Shown: positions 6,646 through 35,733 of the stretch, piece by piece | Layout: each line of letters opens with the position of its first letter | Numbering within the stretch: the stretch's first letter is position 1 | Source of the DNA: a virus | IMG/VR virus record: IMGVR_UViG_3300032156_000042 | Location: 1 to 35,733 of that record | Length of the DNA: 35,733 bases | Reading direction: 5' to 3' (one strand) | Program-made: the position numbers and the translations under genes | The notes under the pieces: model-generated | Database searches by the model: none | The model's input: the letters and a program-made list of their open reading frames with translations, nothing else | Told to the model about the DNA's origin: nothing

Positions 6646-6883
6646 CGTCTTCAAAGCTTTCATCAAAATATAGCCCTTTTGGTTCTGGATCATCTAAAAC
6701 ATTATCAATTTCCATTGAGAGTTTTTTATGTTGTTCTCTGAACCTTGGTTGATTAACGAGCCATTGTAAATATTCGGTAGGTACATCTTCTACATATTCT
6801 CCTTCAAATTTGCCAAATGGCAAGATAGCTTTTTCCTTTAATTTTGGAACTGGCATTCTTGTTACACCTATTTTAGTTGTCAT
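6635..6883 (-). CDS. DUF3820-like protein, 82 aa
   Basis: The segment LPFGKFEGEYVEDVPTEYLQ followed by W-L-V-N-Q matches the hallmark of DUF3820: a small domain with a conserved FGK.KG....VP..YL.WL pattern, often fused to or beside exonucleases. Its biochemical role is not established. The start is set at 6883 (MTTKIGVTRMP), which overlaps the exonuclease stop as ATGA and has GAGGT upstream. Direct coupling to the exonuclease fits the known association of this domain with nucleases. The C-terminus is acidic. Confidence 0.7.
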   Translation of the reverse strand: MTTKIGVTRMPVPKLKEKAILPFGKFEGEYVEDVPTEYLQWLVNQPRFREQHKKLSMEIDNVLDDPEPKGLYFDESFEDDGF

Positions 6884-7839
6884 CTTAATACCTCTATATC
6901 CCATTTAACTTTTGTTTCGAAATTTTCTATTCTATCGTTGAATCTTTTCTTTATAGACTTTAGTACAATGCTATTAGTTCCAGCCAGTAATGTTTTGGCT
7001 TCCAAGTATTGTAATATTTCTTTATAGGAATAATTCTGTTCAGGCTTAAACAGAGTTATATTGGTTGGTTTTTCTATCTTAGTTAATTTTCTTGCTATAT
7101 TGATGATTCCTTCTTGTTTTGCTTTGATTAACTTCTTTGCGATTGCTGGCTTTTCTTTTTCTATGATATCTATATTTTCAAACACCCCTTTAACTGTATC
7201 GTACTTATTAATTAGCTCCGAAGATTTAGAAGGCCCAATTCCTTCTACTCCAGGAACATTATCACTCTGTTTACAGCCCATTAATATTTTCATTTGAATG
7301 AATTTCTTTGGAGTGGTTTTATACTTTTTCTTTAAACTTTCTAGGGTAAACAGATTGAGCATGGATCTTCTAGCAAACTTATCGTAATTCGTATTAATCA
7401 GGGAAGTTGTTGGAGAAATTAAAGCATAGCAATCTTCATCATTCGTATATAGGTCTGTATCGCCATTAACTTTTTCTATTATAGAAGAAGCAACCTCTTC
7501 ACCTTCATACCCTTTTGCGGCTAAACACGGAATGTTTAGATCATATAAAATTGCCTTGATTAATGTTTTTTCTGTAGAAAGATCTGGGATATCTATTTTC
7601 TTCCTATTTTGTTTATACTTAGAATAGATTTGCTTTTTAATGTACGGAGGAGAATCCCAAGCGGCAATGATGAAATCATACTTGTAATCACTATATAGCC
7701 TAATGATTTCTTTTAAAAAACCGAATATGGCACTTGTGAGTATCTTCCTTTTATCTTTCACAACTGCCAACTGGTTATTTTGGAAAGCAAAATGTGACTT
7801 ATAAACTAGGTAAGATGAGTCTATAACGACAGTCTTCAT
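6880..7839 (-). CDS. 5'-3' exonuclease / flap endonuclease, 319 aa
   Basis: A PolA-N/T5-type FEN nuclease that would remove RNA primers and 5' flaps, or degrade DNA, during replication. Visible signatures are an N-terminal metal Asp (IDSSYLVYKSHF, D7) and AAWDSPPYIKKQ with D62 followed by the Lys/Arg-rich arch. Then come GYEGEEVASSI (acidic residues at 112-115), YTNDEDCYAL (D134, D136), and the helix-3-turn-helix at GCKQSDNVPGVEGIGPSKS (D193). The length is typical for stand-alone phage FENs. The start is set at 7839 (MKTVVIDSSY), with AGGGGA upstream, rather than the ATG at 7857. It is the first gene of the leftward operon, right behind a sigma-70-like promoter. Confidence 0.9.
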   Translation of the reverse strand: MKTVVIDSSYLVYKSHFAFQNNQLAVVKDKRKILTSAIFGFLKEIIRLYSDYKYDFIIAAWDSPPYIKKQIYSKYKQNRKKIDIPDLSTEKTLIKAILYDLNIPCLAAKGYEGEEVASSIIEKVNGDTDLYTNDEDCYALISPTTSLINTNYDKFARRSMLNLFTLESLKKKYKTTPKKFIQMKILMGCKQSDNVPGVEGIGPSKSSELINKYDTVKGVFENIDIIEKEKPAIAKKLIKAKQEGIINIARKLTKIEKPTNITLFKPEQNYSYKEILQYLEAKTLLAGTNSIVLKSIKKRFNDRIENFETKVKWDIEVLR

Positions 7840-7873
7840 TAACCGATCCCCTTCCATAGTGATTATTTATTGT

Positions 7874-20206: not shown

Positions 20207-22312
20207 ATGGTACGAACGATAGGACCCGCAGTTGGGAGTAAAGCGCAATTAGGGTACAAAGAAGAGTGTAAATGGGGATACCCCTCTGTTCCTGTTTCAA
20301 AGTTTTTGGAAATCACTAGCGAAGGAATTGCTAGTGAATATACAAACCTTGTGAGTGCTGGCTTGAGATCTGATAGGGCAACTCACAAACAAAGGACCGG
20401 GACAGAAGCTGCCGGTGGAGATGTTAGTTGTGAAGTTTCTCCAGAAGGCATCACTCCATTTCTCAAACACGCTTTGGGACAAAGATTAACCAAAAGGAAA
20501 GATATTGCCTTCGTTATGCATTACAAAGGTGCTGATACGAACCGTTGGGTAGAATTGACATCCAGCACGCTTACAAGTAAAGGAACCACGTCTGGTGATA
20601 ATCTTTCTATTACAATCACAAACAACATGACAGTACAGGCACTTCTTTCTACAATTCACAATTCTACAAACTGGGATTGTTATGCTCCTTGGGGCGATAA
20701 CACTGATGGCACGACCGGTGGGTATTATGCTCGTGCGCTCGCAAGCAAATTGAGTTCTACCCATAGTCTCGGTGCTTACGATTTTGGGATTGTTGGTGGG
20801 GCAAATCAATATGCAAAGAATACAGATGGTACTGTATTCTACCTTGAGCAATTTTCTGGATATGGTGGAACCGCTAATAGGGCATGGGTTGGGCATGATG
20901 ATGATTCCAACGGGTATGCTGGTATTTTCCCCGTATATTTCAAGTACGGCATTTATGAGCATACCTTGAATGCGAATCCAACTATTCCAGAAGGATATAC
21001 TCTCGAAATTGGTCGGGATGTTGCTGCATTCAACTATTATGGGGCAAAGGTTAATACCCTTGCTATGACAATCAACCCCGGAGAAATTGTTACCTCTACC
21101 ATTAACATGATGTGTAAGGGAGCAAGTACGAATGGCGATCCTGAGGTTAATGGGACTAATGTAGGATGGGCTGCTCCCTTTATTGGCATGAGATATGCCG
21201 GGACAGCGGCTTCTGCACATCTTGCAATTGCAAATGATGGTTCCAGCAATATGCTTTCATTTGAGCATGGTGCGCTGGCTTCTGAAATAACCACTTACAA
21301 ATTCACACTTAGCAGACCATTCAACACGCATAATGGTTACTATTTCGATACAACCTTGCTTCAAGGACTCGTTGAGTTCCTTGAATATAACACTTCTTAT
21401 TTTTCAATTACGAGAAAAGCGGGATGGAATCCGTATGGTGCATCGTATGGGACAGCCGGAATTACCACCGTTGCAGCTTCTACAGATATTCCTACAGCTT
21501 CAGATCTCACATTGACTATCGCAATTTCTACGACGATCTGTCCCCTTATAAGAGGGAACTATATTGGGACAGATGCCGGACAAAGTACGAATATCTATGT
21601 TGACATTACTACGGCGGGAGCAACAAGCGGAGTGGCTGCGTTTAAGGGTTCCAAGGATAATACCAACTGGAGTTCTGCAACATTGATTACCAGTGGGATT
21701 TGGTATCCGATCAAGGATGTTCTTGATGCGAATACTGGCTTTGAAGTTATGTGGCCTGAGTTGGTAACTTTGACACAGAATGACACATGGAGTTTTACAA
21801 CTTTCAAAGCAGCGGTGTCTGGTGGTGCTTCACTTTATGATGCCAGAGACCCGTACACTGGTTTTCAGGGCGCTGTCCTTTTGGATAAGGGTGCTGGAGC
21901 CGGTATGACTTCTCAGGGTGTCATGAGCCTTAATTTCACACTTAATAACAACCTTTATGGCGATAAGTATGAATTGGGCGATAGGCAGAGAGCAGCCGTA
22001 GTTGCACAGAAACGATCTGTGGAAGGAACAATCAACACTGAGTTTGATGATCTTGATCTATACAGGATGTTTGTTAACGGTGTGGCTGGTGATCTGCAAA
22101 TTACACTCACTTCAGATGAATATGTTAATGGTAGTACAGTCAAATATTCCATGATTCTTAGGTTCCCCAACATTAAATTTTCTGGGACCACTCCAGTGGT
22201 TGGTGGGCCTGATATCATCACGACTGATTTTCCGTTTACGGCTCTGTATGATGATACTGCCGTCATGCCGGAACTCGTGATTACCGTAGTTAACCATCTA
22301 AGTTTTATCTAA
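20207..22312 (+). CDS. Major tail tube protein with large insertions, 701 aa
   Basis: Forms the inner tail tube. The N-terminus (SKAQLGYKEECKWGYPSVPV), the segment RTGTEAAGGDVSCEVSPEGI (about 63-82) and the C-terminal third (TGFQGAVLLDKGAGAGMTSQ, then VEGTINTEFDD) follow the pattern of phage tail tube proteins of the Phage_tube_2 type. Those are usually 300-400 aa. Here two Gly/Ser/Thr/Tyr-rich blocks are added, at about residues 110-230 and 410-530, probably exposed on the outside of the tube. Strong TAGGAGG ribosome site. A perfect terminator hairpin follows 3 bases after the stop codon, which suits a highly expressed structural gene. Confidence 0.8.
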   Translation: MVRTIGPAVGSKAQLGYKEECKWGYPSVPVSKFLEITSEGIASEYTNLVSAGLRSDRATHKQRTGTEAAGGDVSCEVSPEGITPFLKHALGQRLTKRKDIAFVMHYKGADTNRWVELTSSTLTSKGTTSGDNLSITITNNMTVQALLSTIHNSTNWDCYAPWGDNTDGTTGGYYARALASKLSSTHSLGAYDFGIVGGANQYAKNTDGTVFYLEQFSGYGGTANRAWVGHDDDSNGYAGIFPVYFKYGIYEHTLNANPTIPEGYTLEIGRDVAAFNYYGAKVNTLAMTINPGEIVTSTINMMCKGASTNGDPEVNGTNVGWAAPFIGMRYAGTAASAHLAIANDGSSNMLSFEHGALASEITTYKFTLSRPFNTHNGYYFDTTLLQGLVEFLEYNTSYFSITRKAGWNPYGASYGTAGITTVAASTDIPTASDLTLTIAISTTICPLIRGNYIGTDAGQSTNIYVDITTAGATSGVAAFKGSKDNTNWSSATLITSGIWYPIKDVLDANTGFEVMWPELVTLTQNDTWSFTTFKAAVSGGASLYDARDPYTGFQGAVLLDKGAGAGMTSQGVMSLNFTLNNNLYGDKYELGDRQRAAVVAQKRSVEGTINTEFDDLDLYRMFVNGVAGDLQITLTSDEYVNGSTVKYSMILRFPNIKFSGTTPVVGGPDIITTDFPFTALYDDTAVMPELVITVVNHLSFI

Positions 22313-22315
22313 CAG

Positions 22316-22349
22316 AATGGGCTATGAGGTATTTACCTCATAGCCCATT
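22316..22349 (+). terminator. Strong terminator hairpin after the tail tube gene
   Basis: AATGGGCTATGAGGT and ACCTCATAGCCCATT form a perfect 15-bp stem around a 4-base ATTT loop, 3 bases after the tail tube stop codon. Only a TTTAG follows, so the T-run is short. It probably lowers transcription into the chaperone and tape-measure genes. Confidence 0.75.
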
Positions 22350-22605
22350 TAGTATGTCAATAGATTTGCAAATAGTCTTTGTCTTGACCCTTCTAATTGT
22401 AACTGAAGGGAGGGTATTTTTTAGGCTTGCAAGTCTTATTTTCTGGATTCCATATATTCTGTATATTAGTTCTGTATTTTTTACATTAGCTTTAATCTTA
22501 ATAACATCTAAGAAGCGTATAGAAGAATGGAATCTGGGGTACACATATAAGATTTGTACTAAGGCTTTTCGGAGCCTAATCAAACTAAGGGAGGTAAATG
22601 AGATT
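22350..22605. promoter_or_regulatory. Intergenic stretch between tail tube and chaperone genes
   Basis: These 256 bp are open in one reading frame from inside the terminator (22324) but lack a ribosome site until 22591. The would-be peptide is hydrophobic, as expected from T-rich DNA. A weak promoter candidate is TTTACA (about 22479) with TAACAT 16 bases on. A small AGGCT/AGCCT hairpin lies at 22562-22577. Confidence 0.35.
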
Positions 22606-22959
22606 ATGAAGGGAGTAAGATTTACAGAACCACACGATTTTATTTGTAAGTGTGACGACACCATTCCCGAGGAAGAGAAAACTCTTTTTAGAGTTAAATT
22701 CCTCACTAAAGAACAACAGGCAGAAATTCGTGACATTATGTATAGTGTCAAAGGAATCGGTGCTGCAAGACAAGAAAAATTCTTAACTGGTTCGGCAGTT
22801 CTTAAGGCTTTGGAATATGGTTTGGTTGGATGGAAAAACTTTAAATTTGATGATGGCCAAGAAATTCCATACAGCAAAGAAAATTTTTCGTGCATTCCTC
22901 CTGCACAAAGGGATGAATTAGCTAATCATATTAGAGGAATAACAGAAGGTGAGCTTTAA
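22606..22959 (+). CDS. Tail assembly chaperone-like protein, 117 aa
   Basis: The start is set at 22606 (MKGVRFTEPHDFI) because GGGAGGT lies 10 bases upstream. The ORF is open to 22324, but that start is inside the terminator hairpin. LKALEYGLVGWKNFKFDDGQ and then EIPYSKEN are typical of the small proteins between tail tube and tape measure genes in many siphophages, which act as tail assembly chaperones. The following gene shares this segment. No slippery sequence joining the two genes was found, so the usual frameshifted G/GT pair seems to be replaced by two separate paralogues. Confidence 0.65.
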   Translation: MKGVRFTEPHDFICKCDDTIPEEEKTLFRVKFLTKEQQAEIRDIMYSVKGIGAARQEKFLTGSAVLKALEYGLVGWKNFKFDDGQEIPYSKENFSCIPPAQRDELANHIRGITEGEL

Positions 22960-22971
22960 TAGGCTTATGGA

Positions 22972-23805
22972 ATGGAATATCCCGTTATTGAAAGACTTAA
23001 TCCTAAGAGTAGGTTTCCATATATCTGTGAAAGCGAAAAGGAATCCGAAGATAGGACTGTCTTCTATTTAAAATCGCTTAGTATCTTAGAATATAGGAGT
23101 TGTGAAGAGTCAATAGGGTTAGAAAAAACTAGATACGGAGCATTCGGGTTAATGGCTCTCAGACATGGTTTGGTCGGATGGGATAATCTTATCGATGATG
23201 ATGGTAGGATTATCCCATTTGATTTTTCAAATATCGATGCCATTCCATATATGGCTCAGTTAGAACTTTCTGCCGAAATAATTAATATTGCTGAAGTTAG
23301 TGATGAATTAACTGATGAACTGAAATTAGTCACAAAGTGGGCTGATTGGATTGATCATAATAAGAGAACATCAGATCAATGGGAATGTGGATTTTGTATT
23401 GAAAAAAAGTTACCCGATATAAGAAACTGCACTGGTAATCTTCCAAATAAGTGTCCAAGATGTCAGAGATCAATCCAGGATGAATTTTGCGAACAATGCA
23501 TGTTACCTACTAAGCCACAATTTGTTTTTCGGTTCAGTAACGTGATAGGAGACCATGTAAGCCGTTGTCCTGTTTCTTTGATAACAGAACGGGCTCTTAG
23601 ATTGACAAATATTATCAATTATATAGATAGTTCAAAAGCATTGCCTTTTTCCGGTGGAGCACTAGAACAAACGGCTTTTTATTATACATCTAGAATAATA
23701 GTATTGTCTGAACAGAATGCTCTTCTTAAAAAAGAACTAGATAAAACGATCACTAAAAAGCCGACCATTGGTGACATGAAAAGGGGGACTAAAGATGCCA
23801 GTTAA
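22972..23805 (+). CDS. Chaperone-like paralogue with Cys-rich zinc module, 277 aa
   Basis: Residues 60-105 (LRHGLVGWDNLIDDDGRIIP) repeat the segment of the preceding protein, so the two are related. A Cys-rich module follows at about residues 138-176, with CGFC, CPRC and CEQC pairs, likely binding one or two zinc ions. The C-terminal part is helical. The stop overlaps the tape measure start by 11 bases, so it is probably translated in step with it and helps fold or load it. A weak ribosome site suggests low expression or coupling. Confidence 0.6.
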   Translation: MEYPVIERLNPKSRFPYICESEKESEDRTVFYLKSLSILEYRSCEESIGLEKTRYGAFGLMALRHGLVGWDNLIDDDGRIIPFDFSNIDAIPYMAQLELSAEIINIAEVSDELTDELKLVTKWADWIDHNKRTSDQWECGFCIEKKLPDIRNCTGNLPNKCPRCQRSIQDEFCEQCMLPTKPQFVFRFSNVIGDHVSRCPVSLITERALRLTNIINYIDSSKALPFSGGALEQTAFYYTSRIIVLSEQNALLKKELDKTITKKPTIGDMKRGTKDAS

Positions 23806-26800
23806 TAGAGAAATTAATTTTATGATTAACATGGTTTATAAAGCCAAGGCCGAGATGGCTAATTTTAAGAAAGATATTGATGAGATTAAAGATTCTGTAA
23901 AGGAACTTAATAACCTCGGCCTAGAAAAAAGTGATGCTGGCATTAAACAAGTAATGACAACCCTTTCAGGATTTGTCAAAAAGGTTGGAGAATTAGGTAC
24001 GGGGAAAGAATTTAAGAAGTTTGCTAGTGTTGCAGATGCCTTCAGCAAATTAGCTTACGGAACTAATCTGGCAGAAGATGCTATGATAAGTTTGAATAAA
24101 ACCATAGGGCTGGCAGCTATGGCTGGAGAAAGCTTAGTTGAAAAACAAAAGGAAATAGCTGCTACATCAGGATTTTTACGAGGGATAGTTGGTACTCTTA
24201 CGAATTTGGGAAACATAAAAACCTCTAATTTAGCAGTTTTATCGAATCTTTTTGATTCCATAGGAAAAGCAGCTTCTAAATTTGGCGAAGGCGGGACGAT
24301 AGTACCAGGATTACAAAAAATTGCTACGCTAAAGGATGATTTTACAATAGTTGCAAATGCAGTCACTACAATATGCAAGCAATTATCAATGCCAGTAGTA
24401 GGGCAGAATGCTGATAAGATTGCAACGATGATGCGAGGCGGAAGCGGAGGTGGTGGAGTTCCTTTTGGAGGAGGAGGGGAGACTCTTAAGGGTGGGGTGG
24501 GGGGAACAGAAAGTTGGCGAATGGCAGGGGGAGGCTGGTCTCCTCAGACGGTTACTAATTTTAGAGATTGGTATCATCATGAAACTGAATTTATGGGTAA
24601 AACTTTTTCTGAATATAGTAAAATGACTGTTGGTCTTCAAGGGTTAGGCGATCCTGAAAGAGAAAAGGGTCCTAGTCTTCCGAGAGCGGAAGAATTAAAA
24701 AGGAATATTATTAAGATCAGAAAGGATAGCGAAGAACACTTCAGAGGGCTTTTTGAAAGAATTAAGCAAATGGGGGCTGATTATAGTAACATTGTTGAAA
24801 TGATGACTGGTGGAGGAAATCTTCCTAATGTTATCGCTGCATCTAAATTAAGTGGCGTTTTTACTGGAAAAGCTTTCAGCGAAGAAATAGGAGGCAGGGA
24901 ACTTGGAGCAGTTTCGATGACTCGTGGTACTTGGGTTCATAAAGCTGTCAGTTCTGTTTTTGATGACATCAATAAGGAGTTTGGAACAGAAGGAGGAATT
25001 GGAAGGTTCATATCAGAGGAACTGTATGCTTCTCCTAGATTTAGAAATTTTGCGATAGCACAAGCTAGGCAAGCTGGTCAGGATTTTAAATATGAAATGC
25101 TTCGTGGTGTTGCGGAAATTCAAAAAGGTCCTATGCCATTGCCGAAAGGAGTTTTGAGAGAAACAGTTAAGCAAATCAAATTTCAATCCCAGATTGTTCA
25201 ACAAGATGCCTTAGATGCGCTCTACGGCGAAAAGAGTATTTTTGCCCAAATAGGAAAAATTATTCCTAAAAATGAGTTAAAGGGACTTACTGCATGGGCA
25301 GAGGTTCCAATTACTCCGATTACTCTTTTAGAAAAAGGAGCGACTATCCCAAAAACATATCCCAAAGAAATGCAACAGGAAATCAAATATATGCTAACCG
25401 TAGGGTTAGGTCAAATGCAAAAGGCCGGACTTCTTCATTCTGATACTATGAAAGAGCTTATGGATTATTGGAGAAAGGAAGGCTTAGTTGTCTATGGCGT
25501 TGGAGATATGTTTTTGGAATGGGCTAAAGGCGAAAAGAGGATGGTTGTAGATATTAAAAGCAGTAGGGATGTTAATGCACCTAAAAAGTTAGCAAATTTA
25601 TTTCAAGTAGGAACATATGGGCTATCTGATAAATTAACGAGTGGGTTAAAACAAGCAACAACTTTTGGCGGGAAAGGAGTTTCAACAGGGATTTATCAGC
25701 CGAATCTAGGAACATTATCTCCAACCGCCTTTAGTATTCCACCAGGAGAAATGGTGTATGAAACAACTAGGCAGGCAGGGATAGAAAAAGGCATGCCTCC
25801 TTCGGAAGAAGAAATAAGACTTAAGAAGGTTGTTGTTGAAGCTACTAAGAGGCTGGTTGATGTGACTACCCAACTAACAGAAGCCAATAAGAAACTGGTT
25901 GACGTGACTACTCAATTAACAGAATCCAGAAAAGTAGGAGCAGAAGCAGAAAGAATATTAAGAAGCGGGGCCGGTGGGACAGAAGGCACAGGGGGAGGTG
26001 GGCAAGGCAGTTTCTTTTTTCCCGGTGGCGGAGGAAAGGGTGGTCAAGCAGGAGGCGGAGGACTTCTTTCTAGAGAGATGTTTGCTACTAGAGATGCGGT
26101 AACGGCATATAGCGAGATAGATCAAGCAATAACTAAAGTTTATTTGAAACAAGTAATGTTTGGAGAAAAAATCGATCTTTCTAAGGTTAAAATAGAACAG
26201 TATAATGCTGTAGTGAATAATTTGGCATCTTCTTTTAGCAAATTCGTAACAAGTCAAGATAGAGATGCTGCTCTTGTTAAAGTGGCTGCTCATTTCGAAA
26301 AATTAGCAGAAGTATCATCTAGATATGGTCAAAAAATAGACGAATTGAGTGTTAAAGAGCAAAGGATGAAAGATCTTAGAGAAAAGACCATGTACACGCT
26401 CTTCAAAGCAACTCCAGAGGGATATGGGAAACCTGGACATTTGACTACTGCTGGAGAGTTGAGAGAGGCTCCTGGGGATTATGAAAAGATAATTAGTAGT
26501 TTTTTAGGAAAAACTGGGGAAGTTGCTGTTCCAACATCTAAAGCAATATCTGGAGAAGTGGAAAGAGATTTAAAAAGTTATCAAAATCTAATGAAAGAAA
26601 AAGAACTTTTGTTGATTCAAAACAAAGAATTTCAAGCTTCTTTGGTTGAATCTATTGCATTGACTGGAAAATCTGGAGATGCTAATGAGCAATTGGTTCG
26701 TGAATTAACTCCTGTTATAGATGGGATTATTGGCGAAAATGCGGCTATGGAAACAGCTAGAAAAACAGTTGATAATTTTGAAAAAGCAATTGAGTTTCTA

Positions 26801-29800
26801 ACTCAGGCTCAACGAGCTCAACGATTAGAAATGTTGAAACAAACAACTTCTTCAGAAAGAATTTCCGAAGTAATTTCAAAATTAAGAACAGAATTTGATG
26901 CAATGGAAATTAATATAAAGGATAGCAATTTGTCATATGCTCAATCTAGTGAAGCTTTAGATTATTATGGGCGATCATTATCTCTCATACAAACTAAACG
27001 GGCTGCGACTAGTGAAACTCTGGCAATGATGAAAATGGGTCTAGTAGATGAAAAAAAAGCTTTACTTGATTTACAAAAACAACAACAATCTGGGATTAAA
27101 TTGACAGAAGCACAAACAGCTTCTATGGCAGCTTATGGAAAATCTATCGAAAACACTCAAAAGGATGTTAAAATATATACTGATAATTTAAGTAAATTGG
27201 GAGATATGGAACAGGAGTATTTAATTGCCCAATCAAACGTGAGCACAACACAAAACAGAGCATTGTCTCGAACCGCTGAACATAATCGTGGTTATTTTAG
27301 AACCACAATTCAAGGCTTTTTAGACATGATGAAATCTCAAACAGCTTGGATTGCTGGCTATGGAGTTATGTTCGGAGCTGTTGGCGCTTTTAGGAATGCT
27401 CTTGGTTCGGTGATTACAATACAACACGAATTTGCGAGGGCCATGAGAACAGCCAATGATAGCACATTGACCGCAGCTGAAACTCTTGATCTTTATAGAG
27501 AAAAAGGTGTCGGTGCAATGATTAAGTTTGGCGTGGAAGCGAAAATGGTTGGAGAAGTTCTATATCAGTTAGGCAGTTCTGGATTAACTGCAAAAGAATC
27601 TCTTGCTGCTTTAAATTCTACAATGAGTATGATAGTAGGAACTGAGGGCGAAGTTGCTGATTCTACAAAGTTGGTCGCAGCTGTCTACAATAACTTTAAA
27701 GATCAAATCAAAGGAACGGTAGATTTACAGGAAAAATTTCAATACATAAACGATGTTATTGTGGCGACATTTAACTATCATCAAGTAGAACTTAATGAAC
27801 TTTCTGATGGGTATAAAGCTTTCTTGGCAATGGGTAAGGCAGCTAATTTAACTCTTGTGGAGATGTCAGGAATTTTAGGTACTTTAAATGATCGTTTAAT
27901 AAGATCTGGCGAAGCTGGCCGTTCTATGCAAAGTGTTTTGAGTCAGATCTCTAAGAATCCAATTCAATTTGCAGAGGCTTTTGATATTGTAATAGATACC
28001 AGTAAGCCATTGGAAATCTTGGATATTCTAAGACAATTAAATTTACGCATGAAAACAACTTCTATGTCTGTTGATGAAATGGAAAAAGTTTTTGATAGAT
28101 TAGGACTCAGGGGTGCTAGAACCTTTGTAACTCTTATCAGAGATTACAAAGATCTTGAGTCAAATATAGAAAGACTGAAGATGACCTCTGAAGGTGCTGC
28201 AAGTGCTATGGCCGACGTAATGCTTAGAAAACCAGATGTGGCTTTTAAGCAATTAGGCCAGACAATGATTTCATTGGTGAGAACTGGATTCACCCCTGTC
28301 GTAGAGGCAGCAGCTTCTGTCGCATATTGGGTTTCTAGAATTGGGTTGGCTGCTAATGAAGCCAATAGTACAGTACAGAAATATGCTGGCTATTTGCTTC
28401 AATTGGTGACTACCTTAGGATTAGCAGCTGGAGCAGCCGCCGCTTTCAGAGCAGTTAAAGATAGAATGTTTGATCCAACAGGTGCGGATTTTAAATTAGT
28501 TCATGCATTCGGAATTCGTATTGCTGAAACTTTTACTGCACTTGGATCCATAGTTATAGCCTTGGCAGTATCAATCGGCAGACTTGTTAAAGAACTTATA
28601 GTTCTTCGTACAGTTCAAACTTCTCTTCTCAGTCCACTAGATATGCTTAAAAGTCAATGGGCTAATTTAGGAACGGTCCTTTTTGGAAGTGTTAAAATGC
28701 TTCATCTTGTAGGAATAGCGATTGCTGGCATACTTGTTTATAACCTTATTGATTGGTTAATCGTTACTTCTGAAGAATATGTAGCTTTGACAGGAAAGAC
28801 GGCTGAATACATAGAGACTTCTTATAGTGAAATAGAGGCGTTAAAAGCTAAGGGTCAAGAATATAGGAATTTAGGCGAAGCTACTCGGGATTATTTGGAT
28901 GCCTTAGGAGATATACAAAAGACCAAAATAGAAGATATGATGGCTAAAGCTCCTAAATCAATAGAACAAACTTCTAAGGCTTTAGAATCTATACAGCGTC
29001 AATTCGGGGCGAGTTTGGGAGGACGACCAACATTTGGAGTTGAGGGCATGTCTATAGGGCCAGAGATTGGTGGACGACAAGCACAAGAAGATTTTGAAAA
29101 GTATACCAAAGATGCCGCTCTCGAGTCTAGACGTCTTTTAGATGAGTTGGTGAAAAATAATGCGAAAACTCTTAACCCATTAAAAAAGATGAGAAAAGAG
29201 TTCTATGATGAGCTTACTCAAATAGAAAAAGAAGGTTTAGATAAAATCATTAAGCAATTAGAAAATCAAGCAAGACAAGTGGCGGATGCTAAACTAGAGA
29301 TGAGTAAATATATTACAGGCGCTCATGAAGTTAATGTAGTGCAAGCGGTAGAAAAACCTAGACAGAAGGGGATGTATGGGACACAAGTAGCGATAATGGC
29401 TGAAGCATCTACTCTGGGCCAATTAGCTAAAGCAGAATATGATATAGAAAAAGTTAAAGGTAGAATTAATGAAATGGCTTTTCATTCTGGCGTGTTGAGC
29501 AAAGAAGAAACAAAAGCTCTACAAGATCAGGGAAAAACCATATCAGAAATAAGGCAAATAGCACTTCAAAGAGCAATGGATCAGAAAGCTTATTTGGTCT
29601 ATAAAGATCAAGAAATCATGGCCGATGACGATATTGGGAAAGCAGTTAAGCAACTTATAGAGTTAGATGCAAAAAGAATAGAATTAGCACGACAGCTTGA
29701 ATTAGAGCTTAAGGGAATGACTCGTAGTTATGAGGATCAAATAAGGGGTTTTTCAAGAGGTCTTGAAGATATGGTTTCTGGGATGGCAAAACCAGGACTT

Positions 29801-31933
29801 TTTCAACAAGCTTTCAGCATGCCTACCGAACAATTTCGTAAAATCGAGGACATGACTAAAAATTTAGATGTTGCAATAGAAGGATACCAAAAAAATCCAG
29901 ATGTTCTTAAAAACTTTTTAAAACAAAATTTTGATATTGATTGGGATGTTTTCAATACGCAATTTGGGGAAGGATTGAAGTCTTTAACTCCAGCAGAAGG
30001 TGCGGATATTATTAAAACAAATCTTTTGCCATACATTGATAAATATAAAGAACTTCATAAAGTGCAGTTAAAACTTGCTCAAGATACTGCTATCAAAGAG
30101 TCTGATAAAGAACGAATTCAAGTTTTAAAAGACCAAAAAGTTGCAGTTCAAGACATTATCTCCCAATTAAAATCATATTATTCCACTCTTACTGATGTTG
30201 CAAAAGGGGTCACTGATATAGATGCTAGATCCGAAGATTATAAGATACAGATGAAGACTTTGGAAATAGAATTGTTTGCGAATAATGTGGCAATGGGAGC
30301 TATGATTCAAAAACAACAAGATGCTGAAAAAGGAGTTGGTCGCTTTACAGAACAAGAAAAAGGTCAATTGGAAGTATTAGGAAAAAGTAACGAGTTGATT
30401 GGTCTTAAAATGGGTCTTCTAAGCAAGCAAGAAACCCTTTACAATAGCTTTAAGGGAACTGATAAGGAACTCTTAAGACAAAAGGCTTCAATAGAATTTA
30501 CCGATAGACAAAATACAATATTGTTAGAAAATTCCAAAGCTGTTGCCGATCTTAGATATCAGGGAGAAAAATACCATTCAATTCAGGCAGAAGTTGCCAA
30601 AAGGGATCGTGAAATAACTGAAGAAGTTAAAGCCAAATCTAATCAGTTGTTAGTTGAGAATGACACATTAGCTGGTCAAGAAAAAGAACTGAAAAAATTA
30701 CAACAAGCTGGCAAAGATAATACGGATCAATTAGAGAGGGATATAGCTTTAACAAATTTAAGGATACAAGGCAAGAAAGATGAAATAGAGGTTTTAAAAG
30801 GAACAAGAGAAGCAATTTTGGGTCAATTGAGAGCAGAATTAGAACTTGCCAGAATTCAACAGAAACAACAAACATATGAAGGAGGAGCCGCAACTTCTTT
30901 GGCTATTCAAGATGTTGGAACATATACCGAATTTTATTTGCAGGGATTAAAGGCCAGACAAGATGCTGATCTTAAAGCTTTCGAAGAAAGCAAAAAGCAA
31001 GATGTAAATAGATATGTTTCATCAGAACATTGGGCTAGAATGGAAGCTAATATTCTGAAGAAACATGCAATCGAGACAAGAGATGCTCAATTAATAATGA
31101 TAGAGGAAGAAAAAGCAGCGCAAATGGATAGGTTAAATAAAGATGCAGAATTTGCAGTAAGATCGGCCCAAAATTATGAAGAATGGTGGAGATCTGTAAA
31201 AATGTCTATGGAGTCAGGAGCTCTTGCCTTTGCCATGAATTATGAAAATATTTCGAGACATTTAGCTGATATTACTACAAATTCATTAGATCAAATCGGC
31301 AATGCTATGACAGACATGCTTGTGACATGGGTGACAACCACAGGATCTTCTGCAGAACAAGTAAAAGAAATCATGTTTAATTTGTTCACTAGTTTGGGAA
31401 AGATGTTAATAGAATATGGGTTGAAACTCATAATGGTTTCTCTTCTTACCAAAGCCATTGGCGGTTTCGGAGGAGGCGGAGAAGTTAAAACTCCCGCAGG
31501 AGCCTCAACCGGAGCAGCCAATATGTTTCCTAATCCAGGAGCTCCACAGACATTTAATATGGCTCAGACCGGAGGATATCTCAGAGGCGGTCGCCAAGGA
31601 AAAGATTCTATTCCAATCATGGCAATGCCTGGAGAATATATGATCCCGAAGGATTCTGTAGATTATTATGGTAAAGAACTTTTTGATAGATTGCGTAAAA
31701 GAGAAATTATTAAGGCTCAAGAAGGCGGTCTAGTGACCGAAAGGAACGCTTTAAAAACGCAAGCCACTACAACGGCCACCAAAGAAGAGAAAGGAACAGT
31801 TTATAAAGAAGGAGATACGATTAACTACTTTACTATCAAAACAAATGACGTTAATAGCTTTAGGCAATATCTTTATGAAAATAAACAATTTATTAACGGA
31901 TTGGTGATCGATGAACAGCAACAACGGAGATGA
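23795..31933 (+). CDS. Tail tape measure protein with embedded nuclease-like domain, 2712 aa
   Basis: Sets tail length and is ejected with the DNA. Residues about 1180-1515 match the TP901-type tape measure core (AGYGVMFGAVGAFRNALGSV and onward). Two hydrophobic segments follow, at about 1570-1600 and 1635-1657. Long coiled-coil helices fill much of the rest. The C-terminus (MAMPGEYMIPKDSVDYYGKE, about 2609-2628) is typical of these proteins. At roughly 0.15 nm per residue a tail of about 330-400 nm would be expected. Unusually, residues about 370-625 look like a RecB/Cas4-type PD-(D/E)XK nuclease, flanked by glycine-rich linkers at about 212-249 and 723-757. The sequence also contains a tandem VDVTTQLTE repeat (about 690-710). 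The start ATG overlaps the previous gene by 11 bases. Confidence 0.9.
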   Translation: MPVNREINFMINMVYKAKAEMANFKKDIDEIKDSVKELNNLGLEKSDAGIKQVMTTLSGFVKKVGELGTGKEFKKFASVADAFSKLAYGTNLAEDAMISLNKTIGLAAMAGESLVEKQKEIAATSGFLRGIVGTLTNLGNIKTSNLAVLSNLFDSIGKAASKFGEGGTIVPGLQKIATLKDDFTIVANAVTTICKQLSMPVVGQNADKIATMMRGGSGGGGVPFGGGGETLKGGVGGTESWRMAGGGWSPQTVTNFRDWYHHETEFMGKTFSEYSKMTVGLQGLGDPEREKGPSLPRAEELKRNIIKIRKDSEEHFRGLFERIKQMGADYSNIVEMMTGGGNLPNVIAASKLSGVFTGKAFSEEIGGRELGAVSMTRGTWVHKAVSSVFDDINKEFGTEGGIGRFISEELYASPRFRNFAIAQARQAGQDFKYEMLRGVAEIQKGPMPLPKGVLRETVKQIKFQSQIVQQDALDALYGEKSIFAQIGKIIPKNELKGLTAWAEVPITPITLLEKGATIPKTYPKEMQQEIKYMLTVGLGQMQKAGLLHSDTMKELMDYWRKEGLVVYGVGDMFLEWAKGEKRMVVDIKSSRDVNAPKKLANLFQVGTYGLSDKLTSGLKQATTFGGKGVSTGIYQPNLGTLSPTAFSIPPGEMVYETTRQAGIEKGMPPSEEEIRLKKVVVEATKRLVDVTTQLTEANKKLVDVTTQLTESRKVGAEAERILRSGAGGTEGTGGGGQGSFFFPGGGGKGGQAGGGGLLSREMFATRDAVTAYSEIDQAITKVYLKQVMFGEKIDLSKVKIEQYNAVVNNLASSFSKFVTSQDRDAALVKVAAHFEKLAEVSSRYGQKIDELSVKEQRMKDLREKTMYTLFKATPEGYGKPGHLTTAGELREAPGDYEKIISSFLGKTGEVAVPTSKAISGEVERDLKSYQNLMKEKELLLIQNKEFQASLVESIALTGKSGDANEQLVRELTPVIDGIIGENAAMETARKTVDNFEKAIEFLTQAQRAQRLEMLKQTTSSERISEVISKLRTEFDAMEINIKDSNLSYAQSSEALDYYGRSLSLIQTKRAATSETLAMMKMGLVDEKKALLDLQKQQQSGIKLTEAQTASMAAYGKSIENTQKDVKIYTDNLSKLGDMEQEYLIAQSNVSTTQNRALSRTAEHNRGYFRTTIQGFLDMMKSQTAWIAGYGVMFGAVGAFRNALGSVITIQHEFARAMRTANDSTLTAAETLDLYREKGVGAMIKFGVEAKMVGEVLYQLGSSGLTAKESLAALNSTMSMIVGTEGEVADSTKLVAAVYNNFKDQIKGTVDLQEKFQYINDVIVATFNYHQVELNELSDGYKAFLAMGKAANLTLVEMSGILGTLNDRLIRSGEAGRSMQSVLSQISKNPIQFAEAFDIVIDTSKPLEILDILRQLNLRMKTTSMSVDEMEKVFDRLGLRGARTFVTLIRDYKDLESNIERLKMTSEGAASAMADVMLRKPDVAFKQLGQTMISLVRTGFTPVVEAAASVAYWVSRIGLAANEANSTVQKYAGYLLQLVTTLGLAAGAAAAFRAVKDRMFDPTGADFKLVHAFGIRIAETFTALGSIVIALAVSIGRLVKELIVLRTVQTSLLSPLDMLKSQWANLGTVLFGSVKMLHLVGIAIAGILVYNLIDWLIVTSEEYVALTGKTAEYIETSYSEIEALKAKGQEYRNLGEATRDYLDALGDIQKTKIEDMMAKAPKSIEQTSKALESIQRQFGASLGGRPTFGVEGMSIGPEIGGRQAQEDFEKYTKDAALESRRLLDELVKNNAKTLNPLKKMRKEFYDELTQIEKEGLDKIIKQLENQARQVADAKLEMSKYITGAHEVNVVQAVEKPRQKGMYGTQVAIMAEASTLGQLAKAEYDIEKVKGRINEMAFHSGVLSKEETKALQDQGKTISEIRQIALQRAMDQKAYLVYKDQEIMADDDIGKAVKQLIELDAKRIELARQLELELKGMTRSYEDQIRGFSRGLEDMVSGMAKPGLFQQAFSMPTEQFRKIEDMTKNLDVAIEGYQKNPDVLKNFLKQNFDIDWDVFNTQFGEGLKSLTPAEGADIIKTNLLPYIDKYKELHKVQLKLAQDTAIKESDKERIQVLKDQKVAVQDIISQLKSYYSTLTDVAKGVTDIDARSEDYKIQMKTLEIELFANNVAMGAMIQKQQDAEKGVGRFTEQEKGQLEVLGKSNELIGLKMGLLSKQETLYNSFKGTDKELLRQKASIEFTDRQNTILLENSKAVADLRYQGEKYHSIQAEVAKRDREITEEVKAKSNQLLVENDTLAGQEKELKKLQQAGKDNTDQLERDIALTNLRIQGKKDEIEVLKGTREAILGQLRAELELARIQQKQQTYEGGAATSLAIQDVGTYTEFYLQGLKARQDADLKAFEESKKQDVNRYVSSEHWARMEANILKKHAIETRDAQLIMIEEEKAAQMDRLNKDAEFAVRSAQNYEEWWRSVKMSMESGALAFAMNYENISRHLADITTNSLDQIGNAMTDMLVTWVTTTGSSAEQVKEIMFNLFTSLGKMLIEYGLKLIMVSLLTKAIGGFGGGGEVKTPAGASTGAANMFPNPGAPQTFNMAQTGGYLRGGRQGKDSIPIMAMPGEYMIPKDSVDYYGKELFDRLRKREIIKAQEGGLVTERNALKTQATTTATKEEKGTVYKEGDTINYFTIKTNDVNSFRQYLYENKQFINGLVIDEQQQRR
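24905..25669 (+). other. RecB/Cas4-like PD-(D/E)XK domain inside the tape measure protein
   Basis: In residue order: RGTWVHKAV (H382), AWAEVPITP (E503), GVGDMFLEW (D571), VVDIKSS (D586, K588) and LFQVGTYGL (Q604, Y608). This is the full motif set and order of RecB/AddB/Cas4-type nucleases: His, Glu, GxxD, DxK, QxxxY. The usual spacing is kept (15 residues from D571 to D586). All catalytic residues are present, so it is probably active. Evidence is by eye only. Confidence 0.7.
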
Positions 31934-32397: not shown

Positions 32398-33318
32398 ATG
32401 CCATATCCGGTAACAACTTCTTTTAAACAAGAACTTGTCAAGCTGACACAAGATCAACTTGTAGAATGCTTTGTCATAGATTTAGCTTCTGTTCAAGGAT
32501 ACGTTAGTTTTAATAATAGTTCAAAGAAAATAATTTCTAGAGATAGGGGCGGTTTATTTCCTATAACTAGAATATTAATAGGAGATTCAATAACCATTAC
32601 TGGAACAACTTTAAATGATGCCACTTTCACGGTAGAAGGAATTAATGAAAGAGAAATTACTCTTTTAGAAGCTCCTACCACGCAAGGAACAATTGAAGCT
32701 TCGTTACATAATTATCTTTACTTCGTGAAGAATGATTATAACGTAATTGGTTGGGCAATGAGTGCCGGTGAAGCAATTAATCAAGAACAAGAATATACGG
32801 CAGCCAATATTAGAAGAGAAGATCTTAATTTTGAATTAGAGGGAACTAGTAAGGCTGCGACAATGAGAGTTTCGGTTGCTAATGTGGACAGAATTATTGA
32901 AGGATTTATTCAAGAAAGAACATACCTTAGAGGATGTAATTTATATATTCTTACAGCTTTTGCTAAGCATTTCCCGTCCGGTATTGGATATAGCTATATA
33001 GGAAATGCCCCTGATTATTTATCAAATCTAGTTGAAAAGTTTGTCATAGATGGTGCTATGAGTAATCAGGATGTAGTTACGTTTAATTGCAAATTTAAGT
33101 TTCTTTTTAGAAATGTTTCTCTTCCCGGAAGAGTTATGGATAGAGATTTTTGTTCGTGGGCAGTGAAATATAAAGGTCCAGAATGTGATCCTACAAATAG
33201 CATAGATGAAGGCTTGTATCCAACATGTGATGGGACTGTTGATAATTGTAGAAAAAGAGGTAATTCAAGAAGATTTGGCGGATTCCCAGGAATACCAAGG
33301 ACGGCGATTTATGTATGA
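32398..33318 (+). CDS. Minor tail protein, gpL-like with Fe-S cluster motif, 306 aa
   Basis: The C-terminal region carries four Cys with spacing C-x10-C-x13-C-x6-C (DRDFCSWAVKYKGPEC and onward), followed by RFGGFPGIP, as in lambda gpL, whose C-terminal domain binds an iron-sulfur cluster. Residues about 34-105 are a beta-rich insertion (ILIGDSITITGTTLNDATF) within the N-terminal part, not usual for gpL. It forms part of the tail tip. Its stop overlaps the next start (ATGA). Confidence 0.75.
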   Translation: MPYPVTTSFKQELVKLTQDQLVECFVIDLASVQGYVSFNNSSKKIISRDRGGLFPITRILIGDSITITGTTLNDATFTVEGINEREITLLEAPTTQGTIEASLHNYLYFVKNDYNVIGWAMSAGEAINQEQEYTAANIRREDLNFELEGTSKAATMRVSVANVDRIIEGFIQERTYLRGCNLYILTAFAKHFPSGIGYSYIGNAPDYLSNLVEKFVIDGAMSNQDVVTFNCKFKFLFRNVSLPGRVMDRDFCSWAVKYKGPECDPTNSIDEGLYPTCDGTVDNCRKRGNSRRFGGFPGIPRTAIYV

Positions 33319-33734
33319 GGTATAATTTTTCGAAATATTTAGGGATCCCATACAAAAACAATGGAAGAAGTTTTGATGGGGTCGATTGTTTTGGATTGGT
33401 GAGTTTAGTCTTTGCTATTGAGAAAAAAATCACATTGCCGGATTATTCTGAGAATAGAGAATTGATTAATTGTAGTATTAACAAAGATGAGCATTTGCTA
33501 GGGAGTTTAACCAAGCTATGGAGATTAGTTAAAGACGAAGAGTTTAATATTTTTGATGTTCATGTTTTTTTGGATGATTTTGCTTCTATAACTCATAGTG
33601 GAATTAATATTGGGTATAATAAATTTTTGCATGCGCTAGAGGATAGAGTGGTTGAAATTGGAAAGGTTGATATTTGGAAGAAGAAAATGGTTTTAACAAT
33701 GAGGTATATAGAAGATGCCAAAGATCACATATAA
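33315..33734 (+). CDS. NlpC/P60 peptidase, gpK-like tail-tip protein, 139 aa
   Basis: YLGIPYKNNGRSFDGVDCFG puts the catalytic Cys at C25, and FASITHSGINIG puts the His at H94, the standard NlpC/P60 pair. In lambda-like phages gpK is involved in tail-tip assembly and may cut cell-wall peptide during entry. Lambda gpK also has a JAB domain, which is absent here, so this is a short NlpC-only version. Coupled by ATGA to the gpL-like gene. Confidence 0.8.
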   Translation: MRYNFSKYLGIPYKNNGRSFDGVDCFGLVSLVFAIEKKITLPDYSENRELINCSINKDEHLLGSLTKLWRLVKDEEFNIFDVHVFLDDFASITHSGINIGYNKFLHALEDRVVEIGKVDIWKKKMVLTMRYIEDAKDHI

Positions 33735-35733
33735 AGAATTAGATCAATACTTTTCAGAACTTCAGAAATCTAGAAAAACAACAGTTCTTGAAATGGAGAA
33801 GCTTTCAGATAATAAATTATCAACTGCTGTTTATGAGTTTGCTAGATTATCTGAAGATAAAGAACTTTATAATATGGTTCTTAAGGAAAATGTTTCTGTT
33901 ATTGTTGATGGCGAGGTTAAGCATCCAGATCTTTGGCCTTATCTTAGGGTTAATGAACTTACTGAAGTAGTTATAACCCCTATGCTAAAAGGCGGTGGTG
34001 GAGGAAAATGGATTGGTATTGCTCTTGGGGTTGTGATGATTGTTGTTGGTGTTTTACTTGCTCCATGGACTGGTGGAACTAGTACATATATGGCGCAGAT
34101 TGGTTGGGGTCTTATAATCAGTGGCGCAGGGATGATTTTAAGCAGTTTAGCTGGAATGTTGTTTGCTCCAGATTTACCACAAGATGCCGCCAGTGAAGAT
34201 CAGAACAGAACTAAGACATATAGTTGGTCAGGAATAAGGAGCATTGCTAGGGCCGGAGTTCCAGTTCCTTTATTGATTGGGAGTCATATGGTTGGCGGAT
34301 ATATTATAAGTCTTTATAGTAGAGCAAAAGGAGGAGATAATTATCTGTATGCGCTTCTTGCAATCAGCGAAGGCGAGATAGAAGGTCTTTGTCAGGCAGA
34401 TAAAATAGAAAATGTTTGTATAACTTCTGATAAATCCAATGCTAATTATAAAGATCCAGCTATTTATTTAAATGATCAATTGCTTAGGAACTTTGCTGAT
34501 GTTCAGTGGTGGTTTAGAAATGGTTATAATACAGAAGATCCTGCGAAAGATGCTTATGATTGCACATCCCAGAATCAAATTCCCAATTTTAACGATGTCA
34601 GAGTTCAATTCGATGACGGAAGAGATGTCGTTCCATGGGCAGATAATGGCATAGTTTACACAACTAAATCCGCTGTAGATGCTGTGGAAGTTAATCTAAC
34701 TAGTGGCGCTCTCTACTCTATGGATCAAACCACGGGAACACTGAGTGGTAGGTCTATTAATTATCGCTTGCAATATAAAAAATCCACAGATACTTCATGG
34801 ATTAATCATACCATTATTGGAACTCAGGCTTGTTTAATGTGCCTTTATTTTACTGCAAGCGATAGTGGTGTCCTTGCTTGCGCGAATGGGTATGGAATTG
34901 CGTCATATGATGGGTGTAATAGTTCAACACCAGATGCATCAAGACCATGTTATGCTATTGGAAATAAATATCAAGCCAAACCATTTGTTAGTAGCATGTA
35001 TTATACTAATGGAAGTAGTATTTCAAAAGGATTGAATGTAGATAGTGTGAAAAGGATTAGGATTCATAGTACATCAATAGGAACCACTACTGCTCAAGGG
35101 TGGCTCGGAGCCTATCCTGTTCCTGGAATGACTATGACATTTCAGATTTTTGAAAATGGATCAACTTCATATTATAGTGCCGTTGTGCAACAATATTATG
35201 TACAAGAACAAGTATGGTCGGAAAATGTAGTGTACACTCCTTGGGATAGCGCATCTTATACGGCTCCTGGTTGGGTGATCGCTGATACATTAGTATGGCC
35301 TTCTTCTTTTACTGTAGATATTGGATCATTTAGGTTAGTTTTTGTGAATTATCTTTCAATGGTTCCATATACTTCAGGAGGATTACAATCTGAGTTCATA
35401 GCTTATTCAAAACAAGTCTATTCAGGAACTATTTGGGGAACTATAAGTTCTAAGGGCGAGCGTGAACAAGTATATCAAGTTGAAAAAATTGAATTTCCAT
35501 CTAATGATAGGTGGGACATAAAAATTGGCAGAGAGGCCGTTAAGTCTACAAGTCAATATATCTACGAAGAACTTCAATTAGGAAGTGTTGTTGAAATAAA
35601 TTATGATCCATTAATTTATCCTAATACTGCACTCTTGGGAATAGAAATAAGGGCCAATGAACAGTTATCTGGCTCTCCTCCGAATGTCACAATAATTGCT
35701 AAAGGATTGAAGGTTTCAATTCCAGAAATGGGA
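33715..35733 (+). CDS. Central tail fibre / hub protein, gpI-gpJ fusion (partial), 673+ aa
   Basis: The frame opens at 33715 (MPKITYKELDQYF), overlapping the NlpC gene by 20 bases, and stays open to the window edge. Residues about 50-150 resemble lambda gpI: a small beta domain (VSVIVDGEVKHPDLWPYLRV, then VVITP) and a Gly-rich stretch. Two hydrophobic helices follow (IGIALGVVMIVVGVLL, WGLIISGAGMILSSLAG). From about residue 175 the sequence (GVPVPLLIGSHMVGGYIISL, LLAISEGEIEGL) follows the gpJ-type hub that binds the receptor. Separate I and J genes are thus joined. Several Cys and Tyr-rich stretches occupy residues 360-430. Confidence 0.8.
   Translation, partial: MPKITYKELDQYFSELQKSRKTTVLEMEKLSDNKLSTAVYEFARLSEDKELYNMVLKENVSVIVDGEVKHPDLWPYLRVNELTEVVITPMLKGGGGGKWIGIALGVVMIVVGVLLAPWTGGTSTYMAQIGWGLIISGAGMILSSLAGMLFAPDLPQDAASEDQNRTKTYSWSGIRSIARAGVPVPLLIGSHMVGGYIISLYSRAKGGDNYLYALLAISEGEIEGLCQADKIENVCITSDKSNANYKDPAIYLNDQLLRNFADVQWWFRNGYNTEDPAKDAYDCTSQNQIPNFNDVRVQFDDGRDVVPWADNGIVYTTKSAVDAVEVNLTSGALYSMDQTTGTLSGRSINYRLQYKKSTDTSWINHTIIGTQACLMCLYFTASDSGVLACANGYGIASYDGCNSSTPDASRPCYAIGNKYQAKPFVSSMYYTNGSSISKGLNVDSVKRIRIHSTSIGTTTAQGWLGAYPVPGMTMTFQIFENGSTSYYSAVVQQYYVQEQVWSENVVYTPWDSASYTAPGWVIADTLVWPSSFTVDIGSFRLVFVNYLSMVPYTSGGLQSEFIAYSKQVYSGTIWGTISSKGEREQVYQVEKIEFPSNDRWDIKIGREAVKSTSQYIYEELQLGSVVEINYDPLIYPNTALLGIEIRANEQLSGSPPNVTIIAKGLKVSIPEMG

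Follow-up and report, generated by a model that had tools for sequence, protein, structure and literature searches.

A predicted RecB-type nuclease module in the tape measure proteins of a siphovirus clade

Analysis of a 35.7-kb virus record, all 35,733 nucleotides of which are referred to here as the window, indicated that a RecB-type PD-(D/E)XK nuclease, to all appearances catalytically competent, is built into its tape measure protein (TMP) as a module. This conclusion is supported here by an alignment of homologous domains and by a predicted structure. The preliminary description had proposed a RecB/Cas4-type nuclease between flexible linkers in this protein, and both the model and the conservation pattern upheld that central claim.

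The tape measure protein and its predicted nuclease domain

The window encodes siphovirus head and tail genes, with a head set consisting of terminase, portal, protease, and major head protein. The TMP gene is a single open frame throughout and is located between the tail chaperones and lambda gpL/K/J-like genes, the position of a tape measure gene. The product matches PHROG tape measure families and the Pfam family PhageMin_Tail (9e-18, 65.3 bits against a Pfam cut-off of 33.2). The tail genes are arranged as follows:

20207..22312, plus strand: tail tube protein (Phage_tube_2, 1.8e-26)
22324..22959, plus strand: tail assembly chaperone, gpG-like (phrog_313, E 0.0036, and position)
22972..23805, plus strand: second, duplicated tail chaperone, gpGT-like, with a Cys-rich tail (34% identity over ~90 aa to the preceding gene)
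23795..31933, plus strand: TMP, 2712 aa, with the nuclease module
27527..28093, plus strand: PhageMin_Tail core of the TMP, residues 1245-1433 (Pfam match)
32398..33318, plus strand: gpL-like tail tip protein (PF05100, 8e-15)
33315..33734, plus strand: NlpC/P60 peptidase, gpK-like (PF00877, 4e-10)
33715..35733, plus strand: gpJ-like host specificity protein, running off the window (FNIII-A_GpJ, 5e-9)

The two chaperone genes appear to be a duplicated pair, not a lambda-style G/GT frameshift pair, and the Cys-rich tail of the second is zinc-ribbon-like. The duplicated pair is present in the clade of nuclease-bearing TMPs described below, with a short second frame in the outgroups, and a two-gene chaperone is known from phage 0305phi8-36 (PMC2147016). 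Neither a tRNA nor an Rfam match hinting at the host was found.

Alignment and modeling confirmed that residues ~353-647 of the TMP form a predicted RecB-type PD-(D/E)XK nuclease domain, which is flanked by two glycine-rich linkers:

23795..24406, plus strand: TMP N-terminal helical segment, residues 1-204 (alignable in 9/9 nuclease TMPs)
24407..24544, plus strand: glycine-rich linker 1, residues 205-250 (sliding glycine content; also above threshold in L011, L027, L033, and L036)
24851..25735, plus strand: predicted RecB-type PD-(D/E)XK nuclease domain, residues ~353-647 (A6 alignment, AF2 model, VIA matches, PF12705 in 6/9 homologues)
24938..24940, plus strand: H382 of the GTxxH motif (invariant, 9/9)
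25301..25303, plus strand: E503 (invariant, 9/9)
25505..25507, plus strand: D571 of the GxxD motif (invariant, 9/9)
25550..25558, plus strand: D586-x-K588, the DxK motif (invariant, 9/9)
25604..25618, plus strand: Q604xxxY608 (Q in 9/9, Y in 7/9)
25943..26089, plus strand: glycine-rich linker 2, residues 717-765 (sliding glycine content; also above threshold in L011, L031, L033, and L036)

The span proposed earlier for the nuclease (24905-25669, residues 371-625) covers the motifs, and the domain proved slightly larger. The linkers, which had been noted at residues 212-249 and 723-757, are present within the measured stretches, and the seven named residues (H382, E503, D571, D586, K588, Q604, and Y608) all lie at the positions assigned to them.

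The window domain matched nothing by itself, so homologues were needed. As a single-sequence query it gave no match in Pfam, PHROGs, PDB sequences, or INPHARED phages, and two viral scans queried with window sequence alone found nothing. A tblastn search of INPHARED with the L062 and L027 domains also found nothing. We therefore relied on A6, an alignment of the nine distinct TMP nuclease domains recovered, in which the identity to the window is 16-22%. Only nine columns of A6 are invariant (G378, H382, E503, G563, G568, D571, D586, K588, and Q604), comprising the six catalytic positions named in advance and three glycines. The chance of all six falling among the nine invariant columns is ~5e-11 by a simple hypergeometric calculation, which ignores relatedness and residue type. 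The Y608 position is tyrosine in seven of the nine domains, with phenylalanine and leucine in the other two. Together, the motifs H, E, GxxD, DxK, and QxxxY follow the order characteristic of RecB-type nucleases. No cysteine occurs in any of the nine domains, so the four-cysteine Fe-S cluster of Cas4, AddB, Dna2, and EXO5 is absent and this subgroup is excluded.

Profile searches with the homologues agreed with the assignment. PF12705 (PDDEXK_1) was matched by six of the nine members (best 2.2e-8), with no other Pfam family at E 0.01. In four records the TMP frame scores above the curated cut-off of this family, which the window's own copy does not reach. Matches to PHROG exonucleases and PADLOC Cas4 models also agreed with a RecB-type domain, and a search of PDB sequences returned MGME1 (E 0.0024).

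A single-sequence AF2 model of residues 251-722 reached a pLDDT of 37 and was discarded, while the AF2 model of residues 336-665 guided by A6 reached a pLDDT of 83.5 and a pTM of 0.81. The latter contains a PD-(D/E)XK core, with E168, D236, and D251/K253 (model numbering) on core strands and Q269 in the next helix, as in RecB-type enzymes. Structural comparison by VIA-align gave AddB as the best match (Z 10.5, rmsd 4.8, 216 aligned), followed by AdnA (10.3), Dna2 (10.0), the Cas4-family protein ACE1 (9.3), Cas4 (8.5), MGME1 (8.2), and RecB (7.8). Unrelated helical chains also reached Z scores of ~8, and the lower scores by themselves would not convince; members of the RecB-type family nevertheless occupy almost every one of the top 22 rows. 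Foldseek matches in the PDB were weak (best E 0.013), yet the same family leads, and among viral models PD-(D/E)XK proteins were found at ~4e-4.

Homologues and inheritance of the module

Related contigs were collected using the major head protein and the tail tube protein as queries, and TMP-core alignment scans added more; none of the nine nuclease TMPs was found by way of the motifs. The domain is present in nine distinct TMPs, those of the window and of L008, L009, L011, L027, L031, L033, L034, and L036, all from uncultivated contigs. A profile of the first four domains recognized those of L027 and L031 (1e-57 and 5e-12), and a profile of the first six recognized those of L033, L034, and L036 (8e-54, 1e-28, and 7e-24). 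When the records of 22 relatives were searched whole, nine contained the domain, each as a single copy located within the TMP frame; as L005 duplicates L004, these nine records correspond to eight distinct relatives, in addition to the window. Within each pair of close copies (L008/L005, L036/L037, and L011/L010), the two domain sequences do not differ. The A6 profile matched 0/13 outgroup records, L062 included; many records are fragments, but for these 13 the locus read includes the start of the TMP frame. The domain had been described as no usual TMP component, which is borne out by this profile search, another nuclease domain occurring in an outgroup TMP only in L062.

A scan of genome_contigs returned a single TMP relative, L032 (43% core identity), which lacks the nuclease domain; its 3.2-kb contig is assigned to a Nanoarchaeota MAG, reflecting either a binning error or an unusual host.

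Glycine-rich stretches flank the domain on both sides in L011, L033, and L036; L027 and L031 have one such stretch each, and in L008, L009, and L034 none passes the threshold used for the window. The segment after the nuclease domain shows clear homology to nuclease-free TMPs, and the first ~200 TMP residues show weak homology to the N-terminus of the nuclease-free TMP L022 (E 3e-8). As the flanks are homologous to nuclease-free TMPs on both sides, the module looks inserted. The nine carriers group together in a single clade of the TMP-core tree (support 97/96), and wherever the contig of a clade member includes the N-terminus, the domain is there as well. The only member without it, L035, is cut off by the contig end before that region. 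Identities among the nuclease TMPs are 14-35% in the domain and 44-63% in the TMP core (47-57% between the window and the others around PhageMin_Tail). Domain and core identities are correlated (Mantel r 0.59, p 0.009), as expected under vertical inheritance. These sequence relationships indicate that the module is inherited together with the TMP within one clade.

L062, a distant phage contig, encodes a 4977-aa TMP with a probable RecB-type nuclease domain (L062:6908-7897), and is the only one of the 13 outgroup records with another nuclease domain in the TMP. This TMP scores 21.9 bits against the PF12705 cut-off of 22 (E 7e-6 per record) and contains the motifs GTxxH, GTMD, DLKT, and QLVGY; a local profile alignment covers 106 columns with a probability of 77%. 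L062 is far from the window clade on the TMP-core tree, and no nuclease domain was seen in the sister TMPs L060 and L063, so that a gain in L062 would be independent. On these sequence data, the giant L062 TMP probably gained a similar nuclease independently, and we call the case probable only because no second homologue was found.

The TMPs of L060 (3044-17077) and L063 (3854-17671) are also giants of >4600 aa, with ~2000 residues ahead of the core; they contain no recognized enzyme domain and could hold other cargo. At the other extreme, the outgroup TMP L039:9659-13927 has only ~115 residues ahead of the core, far fewer than its relatives.

Possible roles of the nuclease

The reading we prefer, with confidence that is about evenly balanced, is that the nuclease stays in the tail, enters with the TMP, and works at the entry site on DNA ends. 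RecB-type nucleases act on DNA ends or single strands, and domains of this type without a helicase are poor at digesting a chromosome. The module lies in the N-terminal third of the TMP, which would be the head-proximal end, near the genome end, judging by the solved neck of 80alpha. In that phage, three copies of the TMP have their N-termini head-proximal and joined to the tail completion protein (PMC11661146). The lambda TMP has its C-terminus in the tail tip (PMC10721106) and, while injection is under way, becomes labelled at the entry complex in the inner membrane (PMC13190303). By this analogy, a few copies of the nuclease would remain in the tail tube until the TMP leaves immediately before the DNA, taking the nuclease with it, and would then act where the DNA enters, on the inner membrane or inside the cytoplasm. 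Given the end or single-strand action of such nucleases and the low copy number, its most likely task would be to process DNA ends at that site, those of the incoming genome or others, rather than to destroy the host chromosome wholesale. Presence of the module in virions, its delivery, and its cutting of DNA are all presumed in this scheme; ejection into the cell and the choice of DNA cut are suggested by TMP biology and the precedent of phage P23-45.

Several observations count against this preferred reading. The 80alpha DNA end is capped by the tail completion protein, not by the TMP (PMC11661146). The same phage as the window nuclease has a separate 5'-3' exonuclease (6880-7857, minus strand, with PF02739/PF01367 flap-nuclease domains), which is unrelated to the TMP domain. 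A folded domain of ~300 aa may not fit the tail tube, in which case storage in an unfolded state or removal is possible. Searches of nuclease-bearing records, which are fragments, turned up no ERF, RecT, or YqaJ, and this speaks mildly against resection that would supply an annealing protein.

A role of the ejected nuclease as a weapon, damaging the DNA of the host, plasmids or prophages already in the cell, or DNA that other phages bring in, seems unlikely. Phage-host conflict is known to involve delivered DNases, as with polyvalent proteins (PMC5512222), and the domain is more diverged than the core of the same proteins. However, divergence extends over the entire TMP N-terminal segment, and rapid change is therefore no peculiarity of the nuclease. 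In addition, there would be few TMP copies per virion, a helicase-less RecB-type domain would digest the chromosome poorly, and no adjacent immunity gene was recognized.

A role in assembly, with the nuclease trimming DNA that protrudes from filled heads or stray tail DNA when heads and tails join, is a doubtful explanation. The TMP N-terminus faces the head (PMC11661146), and T4 gp4, a head completion nuclease of the REase fold, is described as required for packaging (PMC7824862). Nevertheless, related phages make tails without the domain (the 13 outgroup records), and the nuclease would be embedded in the tube and not exposed on the neck.

That the fold is retained purely as a structural spacer, no longer an enzyme, is highly improbable: TMP length and inserts vary widely and the window copy reaches no Pfam family, but it is exactly the catalytic positions that stay invariant, against a background that has diverged to the low identities seen in A6. 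An intein or homing endonuclease in the TMP gene, a frequent homing endonuclease target (PMC10448857), was rejected, as the C-terminal HN[CST] splice motif is absent throughout the TMP, none of the nine domains contains a cysteine, the flanks are glycine-rich, and the domain is found throughout the clade wherever the N-terminus is in the contig.

A broader proposal, which we advance tentatively as somewhat short of an even case, is that TMPs have repeatedly become nuclease carriers: this siphovirus clade would deliver a RecB-type nuclease through the tail with the genome and employ it where the DNA enters, at the pore, mirroring on the phage side the entry-site nucleases of hosts, and at least one giant TMP, that of L062, would have acquired such a domain independently.

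Comparison with known systems

No report of a TMP-fused nuclease, exonuclease, or RecB was found in the open-access literature, and absence there is no proof. The first minutes of infection and the virion cargo besides DNA are poorly known. If the assignment is true, DNA nucleases join a very short list of nucleic-acid enzymes built into the tail ruler, and the idea derived from P23-45, of the TMP as a delivery vehicle for enzymes meeting incoming DNA, is widened. A conserved catalytic domain at a fixed position makes the question open to point mutation.

The closest enzymes in fold and motif order (H..E..GxxD..DxK..QxxxY) with a profile match are the RecB-family nucleases without an Fe-S cluster in PF12705, namely the RecB C-terminal domain, MGME1, and RecE. 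Unlike these, the window nuclease is embedded in a virion structural protein and has no helicase partner. Cas4, AddB, Dna2, and EXO5 provide the best structural matches of the model, but the window domain lacks their Fe-S cysteines. The enzymes of polyvalent proteins of phages and conjugative elements are likewise thought to be delivered with the invading DNA; these are separate multidomain proteins, however, and TMPs are unmentioned in that work (PMC5512222). The SNIPE defence nuclease also acts at the TMP during DNA entry (PMC13190303), but is host-encoded and antiviral, whereas the window nuclease is carried by the phage itself. Among TMPs with other activities, that of TM4 has a peptidoglycan hydrolase motif, as cited in PMC13277306.

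Enzyme-TMP fusion is already known, with one close precedent. The TMP of the Thermus phage P23-45, gp96, has in its N-terminal part an RNA polymerase responsible for transcription of the pre-early genes (PMC10770324). In both P23-45 and the window, a nucleic-acid enzyme is fused in the N-terminal part of a single siphophage TMP polypeptide, and action at the entry pore has been proposed for gp96 as it is here for the nuclease. They differ in that the gp96 enzyme is an RNA polymerase characterized biochemically and structurally, whereas the window domain is a predicted nuclease.
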